From a virus: a stretch of DNA of 22,733 bases. Position numbers and translations under genes: made by a program. The notes beneath the pieces are model-generated. The model was not told the DNA's origin and searched no databases. It saw nothing but the letters and a program-made list of their open reading frames with translations. Positions 4,511 to 10,044 of this stretch are shown piece by piece (position 1 is the stretch's first letter; every line of letters starts with the position of its first letter). The stretch covers positions 1-22,733 of IMG/VR virus record IMGVR_UViG_3300040801_001153; one strand, written 5' to 3'.

Positions 4511-6097
4511 ATGGGTTTTTACGTATCGCCTGGTGTATACACTAAAGAAAAAGACCTTAGTGAGATTATCCCGAACATTCAGACAACATCTGGTGCCCTT
4601 GTAGGATATTCTGAAAAAGGAAACACGCAGGAAATTGTGCTAATCACCAATTCTCAACAGTTTATTAACGAGTATGGTAAACCGAAACCGGGTCAGTATT
4701 TTCATTATACTGCCCTTGCTTATCTTGAAAATGGTAACAAGTTGTACTGCATGAGAGCAGTTAATAACGCATTGTATGGTGGCGTTAAAATCATGAAGTC
4801 AGGTTCCGGTCCCAATGGAACACTTGTTACTGGTGTTTCTGTACCAAATTTCCAGTCTGTTTCTGGTGAAGATATTTTGTTTTATATCTTTGCAAAGGAT
4901 CCGGGAAGTTGGAATAACAATTTGGGCGTTCAAATTGCCAATGTTGACGCAGTTAATTACACGTTTGATGTTATCATCTATGAGAAGGATGCAGATGGTA
5001 ATTATCAAATTGTTGAATCGTGGACTGTTTCACGTAAGACGCAGGTCGATGGTTATGGAAAACAACAGTATATAGAAGATGCCATCAATGGTTTCAGTGA
5101 TTACATCACCGTTGCCGATGATACGACGCAGGCTGATACTGTTCTTCCAGAGGTACAACCGACGACGTTGGCTATTGGGGGTGGTTCTAATGGAGCTGCT
5201 GTTTCTGATTCTCATATTAATACGGCTTGGGACAAGTTTGCTAATCCTGATGATGTTGACATTCGTATTCTCATCAATGGTGGGTATTCTTCAGTTCCTG
5301 TGCAACAGAAGATGAAGACAATCGCAGAATCGAGAAAAGATTGTATTGCAATCTTCGACATGCCGTACTCAGCATTGGCGTCAATTAACGATATGTTGAC
5401 GTTCAGGGATACAACGCAGAATTTCAATTCGAGTTATACTGCACTTTACACGCCTTGGGTCAAGATTTATGACCAGTATAATGACAAAATTCTGGATATT
5501 CCTCCGTCTGGATATGTTGCGTCACAAATGGCATACAATGATTATGTATCTGAACCATGGTATGCACCTGCCGGTCTCAATCGTGGCTTATTGAACGTTC
5601 TTGGCGTGACGCAGGTATTCACGCAAGGAGAACGTGACGTTATTTATGCCAAACAGTTGAATCCGTTGCAAACATTCCGTGGTGAAGGTAACGTTATTTG
5701 GGGACAAAAAACACAGCAAGTTAAAGCGTCTGCACTCGACAGGATTAACGTCCGTCGTTTGTTGATTGTATTAGAGAAGGCAATATCTGCTTCTCTTAAA
5801 TACTTCGTGTTTGAGCCTAACAGTGATATCACACGATATCGCATCACAGCCATGATTGACAGTTACTTAGACCTTTTGGGTGCTCGTGGAGCATTCCAGA
5901 CGGAATTGGGTGACAAAGGATACAAGGTTGTGTGTGACGCATCAAATAACACGCCTGCGATTATCGACAGGAACGAGTTGCACGTTGATGTATTCATCAA
6001 ACCGTCACGTGCTGCTGAATTCATTCAGTTGCAAGTCATTATCACTCAGACTGGCGCCTCGTTTGAAGAGTTAATTGCTCGTGGCGTTAATTTCTAA
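4511..6097 (+). CDS. Contractile tail sheath protein (T4 gp18 family)
   Basis: The product forms the outer contractile helix that shortens to drive the tube into the host envelope. The N-terminus (YVSPGVYTKEKDLSEIIP followed by an A-L-V-G-Y strand) is the classic sheath start, and residues about 45-75 continue the conserved N-terminal domain. The C-terminal region (DVFIKPSRAAEFIQLQVIIT, then a T-G-A-S-F-E-E-L end) is the conserved linker domain that joins neighbouring subunits. At 528 residues it is shorter than T4 gp18 (659), so the variable surface domains in the middle (about residues 95-340) are reduced, as in many non-T4 myoviruses. The strong AGGAGGT site upstream and the tube gene directly after it support the assignment. 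Confidence 0.95.
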   Translation: MGFYVSPGVYTKEKDLSEIIPNIQTTSGALVGYSEKGNTQEIVLITNSQQFINEYGKPKPGQYFHYTALAYLENGNKLYCMRAVNNALYGGVKIMKSGSGPNGTLVTGVSVPNFQSVSGEDILFYIFAKDPGSWNNNLGVQIANVDAVNYTFDVIIYEKDADGNYQIVESWTVSRKTQVDGYGKQQYIEDAINGFSDYITVADDTTQADTVLPEVQPTTLAIGGGSNGAAVSDSHINTAWDKFANPDDVDIRILINGGYSSVPVQQKMKTIAESRKDCIAIFDMPYSALASINDMLTFRDTTQNFNSSYTALYTPWVKIYDQYNDKILDIPPSGYVASQMAYNDYVSEPWYAPAGLNRGLLNVLGVTQVFTQGERDVIYAKQLNPLQTFRGEGNVIWGQKTQQVKASALDRINVRRLLIVLEKAISASLKYFVFEPNSDITRYRITAMIDSYLDLLGARGAFQTELGDKGYKVVCDASNNTPAIIDRNELHVDVFIKPSRAAEFIQLQVIITQTGASFEELIARGVNF

Positions 6098-6131: not shown

Positions 6132-6647
6132 ATGGTGCAAATGGGCATAGAGAGTTTGAAAGCGAATCTAAGCAATCCGGCACGTGTATACTTGTGGGAT
6201 GTTGTGATTCCTGCACCAGTTGGTGGAGGCAATCCAGATACGTTTTCATTAAGGTGTCAAACCACCAGCATTCCGGGTAAGAATTTTGACCCGATTCCGA
6301 CTGTGAATTACAAACAGACGGCTGGTGCTAAGTATCACGGAAGATTGCGTTATGACCAGACATGGGACATGACGTTTATTGAAGGTGAAGATGCTGCAAT
6401 TTTCCAATCGTTTCATGATTGGTGTCAACAGCAGATTAATGACCGTGATGGTGTTGGTATTGATGATATCAGTCTCAAATCCGACATTATTATGCGTATG
6501 TTGACATCTGGTGGAGAAGAGTGGCTGGCAATTAAGTTGGTCGGATGCTACGTGCAATCGATGGCTGACGTTGCTATGTCGTATGACACAAATGATGTTG
6601 TGAAATTTACAGTCACAATGTCGTTTGACAGATGGGAGCAACTATAA
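6132..6647 (+). CDS. Tail tube protein (T4 gp19 family)
   Basis: This 171-residue protein is the main tube subunit that stacks in hexameric rings inside the sheath. Typical features are an N-terminal NPARVYLWDVVIP strand, a short R-C-Q-T-T-S-I-P-G-K stretch and the middle strand LRYDQTWDMTFIEGED followed by a W-containing helix. The C-terminal strand pair (VAMSYDTNDVVKFTVTMSFD) gives the usual S-Y-x-x-N-D-V-V ending of gp19-like proteins. Its length is close to T4 gp19 (163). An AAGGAGGT site at 6119-6126 sits five bases before the start. The next gene is a divergent paralogue only three bases downstream. Confidence 0.9.
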   Translation: MVQMGIESLKANLSNPARVYLWDVVIPAPVGGGNPDTFSLRCQTTSIPGKNFDPIPTVNYKQTAGAKYHGRLRYDQTWDMTFIEGEDAAIFQSFHDWCQQQINDRDGVGIDDISLKSDIIMRMLTSGGEEWLAIKLVGCYVQSMADVAMSYDTNDVVKFTVTMSFDRWEQL

Positions 6648-6650
6648 TAA

Positions 6651-7145
6651 ATGCCTATTGGTATCGTCAACGCTGATATTACTAAGGAATGGCGACTTCA
6701 AAGAAGTTATCTCTGGGAGTTGAGATTGCCCTTTGAAAATGGACTTGAAGTCGCCAAGTATTGTCAGAATGTTAAATTTGGTGATTATAGTATGACAGAG
6801 CCATCAACCATTCGTTATGGTGCTTTTCAGGCTCATTATGCAGGTTACTTGACAGTTGAGAAGATTCAAATATCGTTCTTGCGTCCAATACCTGACATTA
6901 TAACACCTTATCTACACAATTGGCGTGCTAAGATAGTTGACGATGCTGGTTTCTTTCATCCGAAACAGGATTATGTTGGTGACATTCATGTGTACATGTT
7001 TGATAGCGATGGTTCGGAAACTGGACATGTAAGATTTCATAAAGCATTTCCTACTGAATTTCCGGGCTACGATTTATCTTATAATTCGAATGATATAGTC
7101 AAACTGACCACAGTTTTTCAGGTTGACAGGATTTATTTCGAATAG
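6651..7145 (+). CDS. Second tube-fold protein, paralogue of the tail tube
   Basis: The 164-residue product aligns by eye with the tube protein just upstream: RSYLWELRLP matches RVYLWDVVIP, a T-E-P-S-T-I stretch matches the T-S-I-P-G region, and the C-terminal DLSYNSNDIVKLTTVFQVDR matches AMSYDTNDVVKFTVTMSFD. It therefore shares the gp19/gp54 tube fold. It lacks a strong ribosome binding site and starts three bases after the tube stop, which suggests lower, coupled expression. It may be a specialised ring at one tube end (initiator, terminator or baseplate adaptor) or a minor tube subunit. Tube fold is well supported; the location in the tail is inference. Confidence 0.78.
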   Translation: MPIGIVNADITKEWRLQRSYLWELRLPFENGLEVAKYCQNVKFGDYSMTEPSTIRYGAFQAHYAGYLTVEKIQISFLRPIPDIITPYLHNWRAKIVDDAGFFHPKQDYVGDIHVYMFDSDGSETGHVRFHKAFPTEFPGYDLSYNSNDIVKLTTVFQVDRIYFE

Positions 7146-7189: not shown

Positions 7190-7966
7190 ATGGAAGACAA
7201 CTACAGACCAATCAGTCTACCATCGAAATGTCTCGTCTATAAAGGCGTTGACAAAGATGGTATCCAAATTCGTACCTTAAAGGGTAAGGATGAAAAGTTG
7301 ATTGCAGAGGTCAACTATGATAACTTTGAGAAGAAATTCTTATTGTTGTTAAAGAACGTCCTGAAAGGTATCGATCCTGAAATTCTCACAGTAGGAGACA
7401 GACTGTTCATACTGTTGTGGGAAGCAATCAATTCTTACAGTAAAGACTTTGATATCGAACATAACTGCATGAGTTGTTTTGAGAAAATCACGTCAACAGT
7501 TGATTTGTCTCAACTCGACGTCGTTGAGTTACCTGACGATTTCAAAGAGCCATACTCGAAAGAATTGTCTGATGGGTCGTCTGTGAAATTGAGATTGTTT
7601 AGAGTGCAAGATGAAATCAACATTGCTAATTATGAGAAGTCAGGAGATTCATCGTGGCTTTACAGATTTGCAACATCTGTTGTACAGAAGAAATCTAACA
7701 AGGAAGTTGGTATATGGGACAGAGTATCATATCTTGAGAATCTAAGTGCAGGTGACGTTGCAAAGATTCGAGCATTTCATCAAGAATTTGCACATGGTCC
7801 CAAGATGGAGGCTCCGTACATATGTAATAAATGCGGAGGTGAGGGCGTAGTGCCCGTACCCTTTCGAACTGAAATGCTTTTTCCGTATGGGGAGAACCTT
7901 AGTAAATATTATGGAAATCCAGTTCGACCTGATGTATCATCTGGGAATGAACCTGACGGAGATTGA
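7190..7966 (+). CDS. Baseplate hub / tail assembly chaperone with zinc-binding Cys pairs (T4 gp26/gp51-like)
   Basis: The 258-residue product fits the phage family that contains T4 gp26 (208) and gp51 (249), catalysts of hub assembly that are not part of the finished tail. Visible features are a helical core with FLLLLKNVLKGIDPEILTVG and then LFILLWEAI, a first Cys pair C93-x2-C96 (HNCMSC), and a second pair C212-x2-C215 (YICNKCGGEG) followed by FRTEMLFPYG. The four cysteines probably bind one zinc ion. The gene sits between tube and tape measure, where lambda-type phages carry their tail assembly chaperones. Its 3' end overlaps a short ORF in another frame. The ribosome binding site is GGAGG before the ATG at 7190. 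Confidence 0.75.
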   Translation: MEDNYRPISLPSKCLVYKGVDKDGIQIRTLKGKDEKLIAEVNYDNFEKKFLLLLKNVLKGIDPEILTVGDRLFILLWEAINSYSKDFDIEHNCMSCFEKITSTVDLSQLDVVELPDDFKEPYSKELSDGSSVKLRLFRVQDEINIANYEKSGDSSWLYRFATSVVQKKSNKEVGIWDRVSYLENLSAGDVAKIRAFHQEFAHGPKMEAPYICNKCGGEGVVPVPFRTEMLFPYGENLSKYYGNPVRPDVSSGNEPDGD

Positions 7967-8060
7967 GAATTGCGATTTAAAAGAGTTAGATTGGTTTCAT
8001 TCTAGATTAGTTAAACAAAAGAAAGACGAGAAACCGAAAAAAGATGGTGGAAGAGATTAA
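7947..8060 (+). CDS. Short ORF overlapping the assembly chaperone; possible frameshift extension
   Basis: This 37-residue ORF (MNLTEIENCDLKELDWFHSR, then a very basic and acidic tail) starts inside the end of the chaperone gene and overlaps the tape-measure start by 17 bases. Its sequence E-I-E-x-x-x-L-K-E-L-x-W-F-x-x-R-L resembles the short C-terminal peptides found next to such chaperones in other phages, so I consider it real. The frame is already open from 7851, so 7851-7966 is readable in both frames. The ATG at 7947 has no proper ribosome binding site. Expression could thus be by coupled re-initiation, or as a fusion by a +1 or -2 shift, as in the lambda G/GT and Mu systems. Which one cannot be decided by reading. 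Confidence 0.6.
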   Translation: MNLTEIENCDLKELDWFHSRLVKQKKDEKPKKDGGRD

Positions 8061-10044
8061 AAGACCGGACGAGGCTGAGAATTTAAAACAGGCAGCCGAT
8101 AAATTGCAGGGATATGAAAATTACTATCCTCGTTGGATATCTGAATATGTCGAAGGTGGAAACACTATATTCAGTGAGTACGAGTTGGGTGTTTTCAGAC
8201 AGACTGCAATCAAATATGACGATGAGTATATTCCTGCTCTTGAATTGTTCGTTGGTGAGTTAGAAAAGTCTGATTCAAAAAATGCAGGAAATATCATAAA
8301 AGGCATCAATAGCGTAATCGCTATGATGAAGAACGTAGTTGATTATATTGAGGTTATCGTCGCTGACAACACTTCGAATGTCGTATCGCAAGAGGATATT
8401 GGTCGTTTGTTTATGTCAATGAGCATGATTGAACAACAAACCATTGAATATCATAATCTTGCTATGCGTGACAAACAGACCAGAGAGGCTGCTGAGGCGG
8501 TAAAGGATTCTACCAAAGTAGAATTGCAGAAAATTAGTCGTACAAGCAAACTTGCAAGTCAGATGTTTAAGAAGGCTGTACCAAAGAAGGGTTTGTTGGC
8601 TAGGGCTAAAGAAATAACGCCTGGTGGGTATGACTTAGGTAAATCTTTATTGGGTGGAGTTGCTGCCGCTACGTTGGGTCCGTTTGGTGAGTTAGGAAGA
8701 CTTGCAGTAGAGGCTGGTACTGGTGCAATAGGAAGATACCGTCAGGCAAAAGTGTCTGCAGGTAGACGTACATTTGCTAAAGAAATAACTGGTGGTGTTC
8801 CATATATACCTGAAGAAACATTTGAGGAAACAGAAGTACAAAGACAAGGCGGTACTGGATTATCGTTATATGGACTTTCCGGTGGTAAGCCAACATATAG
8901 ACGTGAAGGAAATAGATTCGTAAAAGACATTGGTGGTGGAGAGAATATATATGAACGTGGTCGAGGCATGGCTATACGAAGAGCCCAACCACAGGCGATA
9001 CAACCTGTAATGCAGAGAAGTGACGTTTCTGTTGGCTCTGCAAAAATGACTGGAAAATCTTTATTCAACTTCTTTGATAAAGAGGCATACAATGCAAAGT
9101 GGACAAAAGAAATGTTGTCTCTGTTTAGGAGAATGAATAAGGGAATAGGAGAAGTTGATGGAGGAGGAGGTTTAGTTGAGACTGCTATAGGTTCTGCACT
9201 TGGAATTGGTGCAGGTGCAGGGTTATTGGGTCGTATGAAGGGTTTGTTGGGTAAGGGAGTTTCTAAAGCAGGAATGGCTGTTAAAGGTGCTGGAGGTGCA
9301 GTTGCAAGAGGTGGTGCAGGATTAGTTGCAAAGGGGGGTACTGCATTAAAAGGTGTTGCCGCAGTTGCCAGTAAAGCAGCATTACCAGCAGCAGCGATTA
9401 CTGCCGCAGCCGCAGGTGGATGGATGGCAGGTAGAGCCATTGGTGGTATGAAAGTTGGCGGTAAGACAATCGATAAACGTGTCGAAGAGTTTGCAGTAAA
9501 GAACATATTTGGTGACGAGAAGAAAAAATTAAAGAAGGCTGCTAAGAAAGACACTGGTAATTCTGTCGTTTCAAGAGCGTTGGAATTGCAGGCATTGAAT
9601 CCTGAACTGACTACAAAAGAGGCAGTTACTATGGTAACCCAACAAGATAAGTCAAAAGGATTAAGTAAACCTGCCGTTGAAGAGAAAAAGACAACAGATG
9701 CTATCGATATTAAATCTAAAGAATTAAATTTAAGTGAAGTTCAGGCTTCAATAATGCAAGATAAAGATGTTAAGAATGCTATTGGAGGTCTTAAAGAAAT
9801 ACAAAAAATTAAAGAAGAAAGAATTGAACCAGTTATTCAAAACGATATACTTCCTGCTATGAACAACATGACTGCTAAGTTAGAGGCTACTATGAAAGAG
9901 GTTGCAAAATCCGTTAGTAGTATGGCTAAAGAGGCTGGTTCAACAATAGTAAAGAAACAACGTGCAGGTTCAGGAAATGCTCACAGTACTGGTGACGATT
10001 CAATTGAATTTTTAAATCTTGGAATTATAGGACTTGGTACATGA
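8044..10044 (+). CDS. Tail tape-measure protein
   Basis: The 666-residue product lies in the standard tape-measure slot between chaperone and baseplate hub genes. The N-terminal third (residues 1-170) is helical and charged. Residues about 374-466 form a Gly/Ala-rich hydrophobic stretch (for example GAGAGLLGRMKGLLGKGV and ALPAAAITAAAAGGWMAG), typical of tape measures that enter the host membrane. The C-terminal part returns to helical, coiled-coil-like sequence and ends in the motif FLNLGIIGLGT. At about 1.5 angstrom per residue the length predicts a tail near 100 nm, similar to T4, where gp29 has 590 residues. The start at 8044 is the first ATG after an in-frame stop at 8008 and has no strong ribosome binding site, so coupling with the upstream ORF is likely. 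No lytic domain is visible. Confidence 0.8.
   Translation: MVEEIKRPDEAENLKQAADKLQGYENYYPRWISEYVEGGNTIFSEYELGVFRQTAIKYDDEYIPALELFVGELEKSDSKNAGNIIKGINSVIAMMKNVVDYIEVIVADNTSNVVSQEDIGRLFMSMSMIEQQTIEYHNLAMRDKQTREAAEAVKDSTKVELQKISRTSKLASQMFKKAVPKKGLLARAKEITPGGYDLGKSLLGGVAAATLGPFGELGRLAVEAGTGAIGRYRQAKVSAGRRTFAKEITGGVPYIPEETFEETEVQRQGGTGLSLYGLSGGKPTYRREGNRFVKDIGGGENIYERGRGMAIRRAQPQAIQPVMQRSDVSVGSAKMTGKSLFNFFDKEAYNAKWTKEMLSLFRRMNKGIGEVDGGGGLVETAIGSALGIGAGAGLLGRMKGLLGKGVSKAGMAVKGAGGAVARGGAGLVAKGGTALKGVAAVASKAALPAAAITAAAAGGWMAGRAIGGMKVGGKTIDKRVEEFAVKNIFGDEKKKLKKAAKKDTGNSVVSRALELQALNPELTTKEAVTMVTQQDKSKGLSKPAVEEKKTTDAIDIKSKELNLSEVQASIMQDKDVKNAIGGLKEIQKIKEERIEPVIQNDILPAMNNMTAKLEATMKEVAKSVSSMAKEAGSTIVKKQRAGSGNAHSTGDDSIEFLNLGIIGLGT

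Follow-up and report, generated by a model that had tools for sequence, protein, structure and literature searches.

The window, by which we mean the whole stretch of DNA analysed, is an entire IMG/VR virus record of 22,733 bases and probably represents a fragment of a virus genome. It carries a contractile-tail module made up of a tail sheath gene (4511-6097), two adjacent genes for tail tube-like proteins of phrog_45 (6132-6647 and 6651-7145), a tail assembly chaperone gene (7190-7966, plus strand) and an ORF in the tape measure position (8044-10044, plus strand). The phrog_45 pair, spanning 6132-7145, is probably a tandem duplication. The chaperone gene sits between the tail tube genes and the 666-residue ORF, as in G/GT-type pairs. 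The preliminary description had located the overlap discussed below just before the tape measure gene, and a long ORF does begin at 8044. That ORF has neither an above-cut-off Pfam match nor a PHROG hit, so the name presumed tape measure protein reflects position and size. Opposite its alanine/glycine rich part lies an antisense ORF of 270 residues (8742-9554, minus strand), which is probably spurious.

The chaperone ORF encodes a protein of 258 residues and ends at a TGA at 7964-7966. It belongs to the T4_baseplate family PF12322 (E 3.2e-11; 43.8 bits, the curated cut-off being 24.5), with the only match to this family in the 22.7 kb fragment, and it also matches phrog_150, annotated as baseplate hub (E 1.5e-13). 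We refer to it as the short form (G-like, or TAC-N). Its structure was modelled with a pLDDT of 87. Foldseek returned no match to this model at E 0.001 or better, with the HK97 tail assembly chaperone at rank 29. When the Foldseek matches were re-aligned, the HK97 chaperone (2ob9_B) came first with a Z of 5.2 (rmsd 4.3, 97 aligned) and the next match had a Z of 3.3, values below 8 being weak.

The end of the chaperone gene is overlapped by a second frame, +1 relative to the first, that is open from 7851 to 8060. It is bounded by a TAG at 7848-7850 and a TAA at 8058-8060, and its last 17 nt overlap the start of the presumed tape measure gene. The preliminary description was thus correct that this frame is open back to 7851 while the chaperone reads through the same bases to 7966, and that a move out of the chaperone frame would have to be +1 or -2. 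We interpret 7866-8057 as the putative C-terminal extension (T-like, or TAC-C) of a long form, with the 0-frame tail of the short form (7865-7966) being dual-coding with it. By translation the fusion product has 289 residues. The extension was modelled as helices (pLDDT 82), and Foldseek found nothing for that model with an E of 0.001 or below; some phage proteins reached a probability above 0.9 but with E above 0.2. The candidate site for the shift is CCC_TTT_CGA at 7859-7867, read as Pro-Phe-Arg in the 0 frame. The TAG at 7848-7850, which ends 8 nt before CCC, sets the upstream limit for a shift, and among the 18 window ORFs scanned the only in-frame TTT CG is at this site.

Viral contigs were scanned once by protein and once by profile, which gave relatives of 48-75% identity. 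The profile scan gave 36 loci, five of which were dropped: four end before the overlap (L047-L050) and L015 repeats the contig of L001. With L001 and the window added, the remaining 31 loci amount to 33 sequences, which fall into 28 clusters at 95% nucleotide identity. L002-L005 are the contigs of L030, L032, L040 and L042, and L006 and L007 are partial. Among GenBank phages there are eight records with relatives, all below 60% identity and none of them close. A search of bacterial and archaeal genomes for relatives of the chaperone gave 267 pattern matches, none of which was confirmed.

All 28 clusters carry a related extension in the +1 frame overlapping the chaperone end, and 25 of the 28 entered the extension alignment. 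For a synonymous-shuffle test we used the 26 clusters with an overlap of at least 66 nt, leaving out L036 and L045, which have 0-frame tails of other lengths. The +1 frame is open in all 26, whereas 1000 synonymous shuffles of the 0 frame gave a mean of 8.73 open clusters and a maximum of 18. An open +1 frame is unremarkable by itself, as about a third of the shuffled sequences stay open. The mean pairwise similarity of the +1 translations was 2.95, as opposed to 0.39 (sd 0.08) in the shuffled sequences, a z of 31.3 that is an upper view since the shuffles treat related sequences as independent. At the level of sequence, then, what goes beyond chance is the conservation (26 of 26 frames open, the +1 residues, the invariant CCC_TTT_CGN) and not the openness itself. 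Counted from the motif, codons -12 to -9, -2 and -1 show about as much synonymous conservation as expected; the value is 1.00 at CCC and TTT and remains elevated over most of the overlap that follows. The +1 residues, too, are conserved from the motif onward, which is ahead of any start that the relatives share. Beyond the usual 0-frame stop the extension has a median dN/dS of 0.41 (69 pairs), in a run that took in the window and L001, where part of the tested region is still dual-coding.

The preliminary description had proposed looking for a conserved slippery string in the overlap of related phages, and one is present: the 0-frame codons CCC TTT CGN occupy the same place in 28 of 28 clusters, with CGA in 17, CGG in 7, CGC in 3 and CGT in 1. 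Elsewhere in the same genes CCC accounts for 31 of 280 proline codons (11%), TTT for 162 of 235 phenylalanine codons and CGN for 85 of 224 arginine codons (38%). As the clusters are related, these codon counts are not independent, and the shuffle null treats clusters as if they were. The relatives also narrow the place of the shift. In L032 and L034 a +1 stop ends 5 nt before CCC, and in L045 the first base of the 0-frame stop is 12 nt downstream of the first base of CCC, two codons past the motif. Between these limits the only invariant codons are those of the slip motif, and since the +1 stops lie just upstream and the 0-frame stop of L045 comes so early, the slip would be confined to the motif. 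The chaperone stop itself varies, falling 66 or 72 nt past the start of CCC in 25 of the 28 clusters and, with the exceptions (the window, L001 and L045), anywhere from 12 to 195 nt. Re-pairing after a +1 move would be good for both tRNAs (CCC to CCU and UUU to UUC), and a slip led by the Pro-tRNA or by the Phe-tRNA would yield an identical protein. A search for a downstream RNA stimulator found no conserved structure, with a z of 0.08 in the window and, in an alignment of 18 of the 28 clusters, 5 pairs and no double change.

Together, the overlap, the invariant motif, the dual coding and the conservation, along with the lack of a conserved independent start described below, make it very probable in our judgment that one gene gives rise to two chaperone forms through a +1 programmed frameshift at CCC_UUU_CGA. 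We hypothesize that most ribosomes would read 7190-7966 and produce the short form, while a minority would move one base forward at 7859-7867. With the CGN arginine codon still awaiting its tRNA, the peptidyl-tRNA(Phe) would exchange UUU for UUC, and the tRNA(Pro) could then do likewise, leaving CCC for CCU. Shifted ribosomes would then read 7866-8057 and complete the 289-residue long form, which would end in the helical extension where the short form has its own tail. If the parallel with lambda G/GT holds, the tape measure protein may be coated by numerous short copies and a few long ones, and the extension may recruit tail tube subunits. Slippage, its rate, the tRNA that slips first and the role in assembly are what we infer from the comparisons.

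The preliminary description had left the choice between a frameshift and a coupled micro-gene. Comparison of relatives favors the frameshift, in the +1 direction, and the micro-gene lacks a conserved start and ribosome binding site. If the extension were an independent gene, translated from its own +1-frame start by ribosomes that either initiate internally or re-initiate past the chaperone stop, one could point to the record of Bacillus phage SP-15, which annotates such a gene (SP15_046), and to the ATG at +88 (window 7947), which recurs in many relatives. That ATG had been noted as lacking a ribosome binding site, and indeed none of the +1-frame ATGs in the window (7887, 7911, 7932 and 7947) has a Shine-Dalgarno match of at least 4 nt located 3-12 nt upstream. 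The extension of L045 has no ATG at all, and an audit of +1-frame starts found none with a ribosome binding site conserved across the relatives. We conclude that 7947, earlier taken as the start of the short ORF, is not the functional start and that coding in the new frame begins at about 7866. A micro-gene would also leave the invariant CCC_TTT_CGN unexplained, and it fits poorly with +1 residues that are conserved upstream of any common start and with a chaperone stop as variable as the one described above. We therefore regard an independent gene as very unlikely. Chance openness, a pseudogene or a sequencing error would agree with the share of shuffled sequences that stay open, yet the shift is common to 28 clusters from separate contigs and the residue conservation has a z of 31, leaving these explanations with an almost negligible probability.

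Two other routes into the same frame start from the chaperone itself. The -2 shift suggested earlier by reference to phage Mu would arrive in the same frame, and Mu is the published natural case according to the excerpted text of that source (PMC3498833). At the invariant CCC_TTT_CG, however, a -2 move would place tRNA(Phe) over CCU and tRNA(Pro) over NNC, so that neither tRNA can re-pair two bases upstream, whereas after a +1 move both can. A -2-capable string does exist at 7877-7882 (CTT TTT), but it varies among relatives (CTT CTT, TTA CTT, CTT ATT) and lies past the place of the 0-frame stop of L045, and we consider a Mu-type shift extremely improbable. A +1 slip elsewhere in the window is highly improbable as well. 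In prfB a Shine-Dalgarno sequence stands 3 nt from CUU, with a stop codon in the A site. The window by itself resembles this layout at 7889-7903, where CTT AGT follows GGGGAG with a 3-nt spacer, but the relatives have ACG CTT GAA (L016), AGA CTT AAC (L020) or GAA TTA CAA (L039) there, and this site too falls past the place of the L045 stop. We accordingly set aside the RF2-like GGGGAG-AAC-CTT-A, which is convincing in the window only, along with a slip at CTT TTT CC, which is not conserved among relatives. A prfB-type frameshift at the invariant site was also rejected, the A-site codon being CGN, the Shine-Dalgarno sequence lying 18 nt from CCC and the look-alike being variable.

That Shine-Dalgarno sequence, GGAGGTGA at 7835-7842 within the chaperone gene, is itself conserved. 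Codons -8 and -7 are GGA GGT far above glycine usage, with synonymous identities of 0.82 and 0.89 compared to 0.29. Of the 28 clusters, 24 have a Shine-Dalgarno match of at least 6 nt no more than 36 nt upstream of CCC, as opposed to a mean of 4.7 and a maximum of 11 over 500 shuffles, and the same criterion finds 26 matches in 416 other segments of the same genes. In the window a candidate GTG start in the chaperone frame (7850-7852) lies 9 nt downstream of GGAGGT, with the slip site three codons further on. In 17 of 28 clusters the Shine-Dalgarno match is followed, at 3-11 nt, by an in-frame NTG (shuffles: mean 1.4, maximum 6). Codon -3 is NTG in 19 of 28 clusters, against 6.5% of codons overall, and where it encodes valine in the 26-cluster set it is GTG in 10 of 12, compared to 18% of valines elsewhere. 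As both elements are conserved in most clusters, ribosomes may plausibly initiate there, in the chaperone frame and three codons short of the slip.

These observations raise a further alternative, in which an extension-only product is made too. Ribosomes would start at GTG 7850, read in the chaperone frame and slip +1 three codons later, giving MPVPF-ELKCFF..., a free extension that would supplement and not replace the fusion. In its favor are the shuffle comparisons given above, the preference for GTG among the valines at codon -3, two loci (L037 and L038) in which the Shine-Dalgarno sequence and the NTG are both shifted downstream, and the annotated internal product 26' of T4 gene 26 (L051 4803-5429). 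On the other side, the pair is absent from 11 of 28 clusters, L033-L035 have a Shine-Dalgarno sequence with no start after it, and in the clade of Alishewanella phage Slickus01 GGAGGT-like sequences recur while an in-frame ATG, GTG or TTG follows only in L059 (1 of 5, at codon -2). The Shine-Dalgarno sequence could instead act on elongating ribosomes. Its spacing of 18 nt from CCC is, to our knowledge, beyond that of known stimulators. On balance we hold this extra product to be possible but doubtful. We speculate, just as tentatively, that the locus is a three-product switch yielding a full-length short chaperone, a +1 fusion and a free extension (ribosome binding site at 7835-7852, same UUU_CGN slip), that T4-type chaperones then moved between a +1 slip, a -1 slip and gene duplication while keeping both forms, and that UUU_CGN is common to bacterial, archaeal and eukaryotic viruses.

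Our preferred reading, a +1 slip that yields a short and a long form from one gene, has counterparts in other lineages, which were placed in PF12322 through the reference members L009, L012 and L013. A second clade, at about 24% protein identity, consists of Slickus01 and four viral contigs and has CCC_TTT_C in 5 of 5; in its member L059 a +1 stop ends 2 nt before CCC. An L012-related clade has TTY_TTT_TGG with a +1 extension in 9 of 9 clusters, and an L013 clade has T_TTT_TTC with a -1 shift in 3 of 3. With CCC_TTT_C, TTY_TTT_TGG and the -1 T_TTT_TTC in separate lineages, a similar extension would therefore be reached through different slips. The frame of the next ORF after the chaperone was inspected at 25 loci. 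Of the 20 loci in a further set 16 were counted, L085 and L086 being incomplete and L077 and L082 having no +1 overlap and the next ORF in the +2 frame; L063 was incomplete too.

Several observations were made alongside. In the lineage of L067-L084 TTY_TTT_TGG is invariant near the stop and followed by a +1 extension, with L077 and L082 lacking the overlap. L013, L064 and L066 are chaperone relatives in contigs of up to 595 kb, with T_TTT_TTC and a similar extension in the -1 frame. In SP-15 (L010 4446-4769) the chaperone overlaps an open +1 frame and the extension is annotated as a separate small gene, and in Slickus01 (L009 4374-4691) and LIS04 (L011 4638-4946) the conserved +1 extension is unannotated in GenBank. 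For SP-15, LIS04, GXN1 and L012 the slip codons were guessed, in each case from one sequence.

The case that emerges from the alignments, which we consider well supported, is a +1 frameshift of an established type, within a family whose published account is two-gene expression, at a motif known mainly from eukaryotic viruses. The group concerned is uncultured tailed phages. According to the excerpted text of the PRFect paper, no general motif for forward shifts had been identified (PMC10885494). A clear +1 motif would aid annotation of extensions that now go unannotated, as in Slickus01 and LIS04, or are split off as a gene, as in SP-15. T4 is the exception to the chaperone frameshift, and a T4-type clade that apparently keeps a frameshift, +1, shows how such an exception can arise. 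Slippage at UUU_CGN on bacterial ribosomes also becomes testable. Our searches of open-access papers turned up no report of a +1 shift or of UUU_CGN in a T4-type (PF12322) chaperone.

One comparable system is the lambda G/GT-type tail assembly chaperone frameshift, reportedly described by Xu et al. in 2004. As there, one gene before the tape measure ORF would yield a short form and a minor, C-terminally extended form by frameshift. The window differs in direction, +1 as opposed to -1 in most phages and -2 in Mu, in belonging to another chaperone family, and in having CCC_UUU_CGN in place of X_XXY_YYZ. The tail assembly chaperones of T4-like phages are said to have been treated by Vladimirov et al. 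in 2022. The window chaperone shares PF12322 membership with T4 gp26 (8.8e-64) and gp51 (3.9e-52), whose profiles match one another with an hhalign probability of 99.2. T4 uses two genes, whereas in the window phage a single gene with a +1 shift apparently supplies both forms, and the comparison suggests that gp51 is the long form of the T4 chaperone. The similarity of the window extension to the gp51 C-terminus was not significant (phrog_634, E 0.02; hhalign, E 0.17 at positions 222-247 of the gp51 profile), and against gp26 it gave E 0.4. With hhalign, the fusion aligned to T4 gp51 alone in the zinc ribbon region only, and in the comparison with five gp51s the C-terminal ends were not aligned to each other. 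The fused Slickus01 protein aligned to phrog_150 through the last position, with a gain of 10 bits over the 0-frame protein. As excerpted, a 2010 source calls T4 gp51 essential, with its function then unknown (PMC3004832). The PRFect excerpt, which cites Vladimirov 2022 and does not name gp26 or gp51, has some T4-like phages encode the two forms in a short gene and in a longer one that is a fusion (PMC10885494). The review by Atkins et al. (2016), in the part that we cite, describes the G-T frameshift as widespread, with T4 as the exception, and considers +1 very likely for HSTV-2 (PMC5009743).

Another comparison is with the HF1-like haloviruses, for whose tail chaperone a +1 shift with TTT-CGC is proposed in the excerpted text of PMC7230728. 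These haloarchaeal myoviruses share with the window a chaperone pair before the tape measure gene, the +1 direction and TTT-CGC, but their host is archaeal and the HF1 chaperone matches phrog_14268 and phrog_12163, not PF12322, so the shared motif looks convergent. Pseudomonas phage Adele and its relatives are credited, in the excerpt of PMC12846349, with a -1 shift at GTTTTT, which recalls T_TTT_TTC of the L013 clade; these two share the gene position and two-form logic proposed here and run in the opposite direction. Finally, UUU_CGN is the +1 site of influenza A PA-X (UCC_UUU_CGU) and is proposed for plant amalgaviruses, as stated in the excerpts of PMC3498833 and PMC5052127. The site in the window resembles these in having UUU in the P site, CGN in the A site, a +1 direction and all four CGN codons among its members, and differs in that they belong to eukaryotic RNA viruses and that the E-site codon here is CCC.
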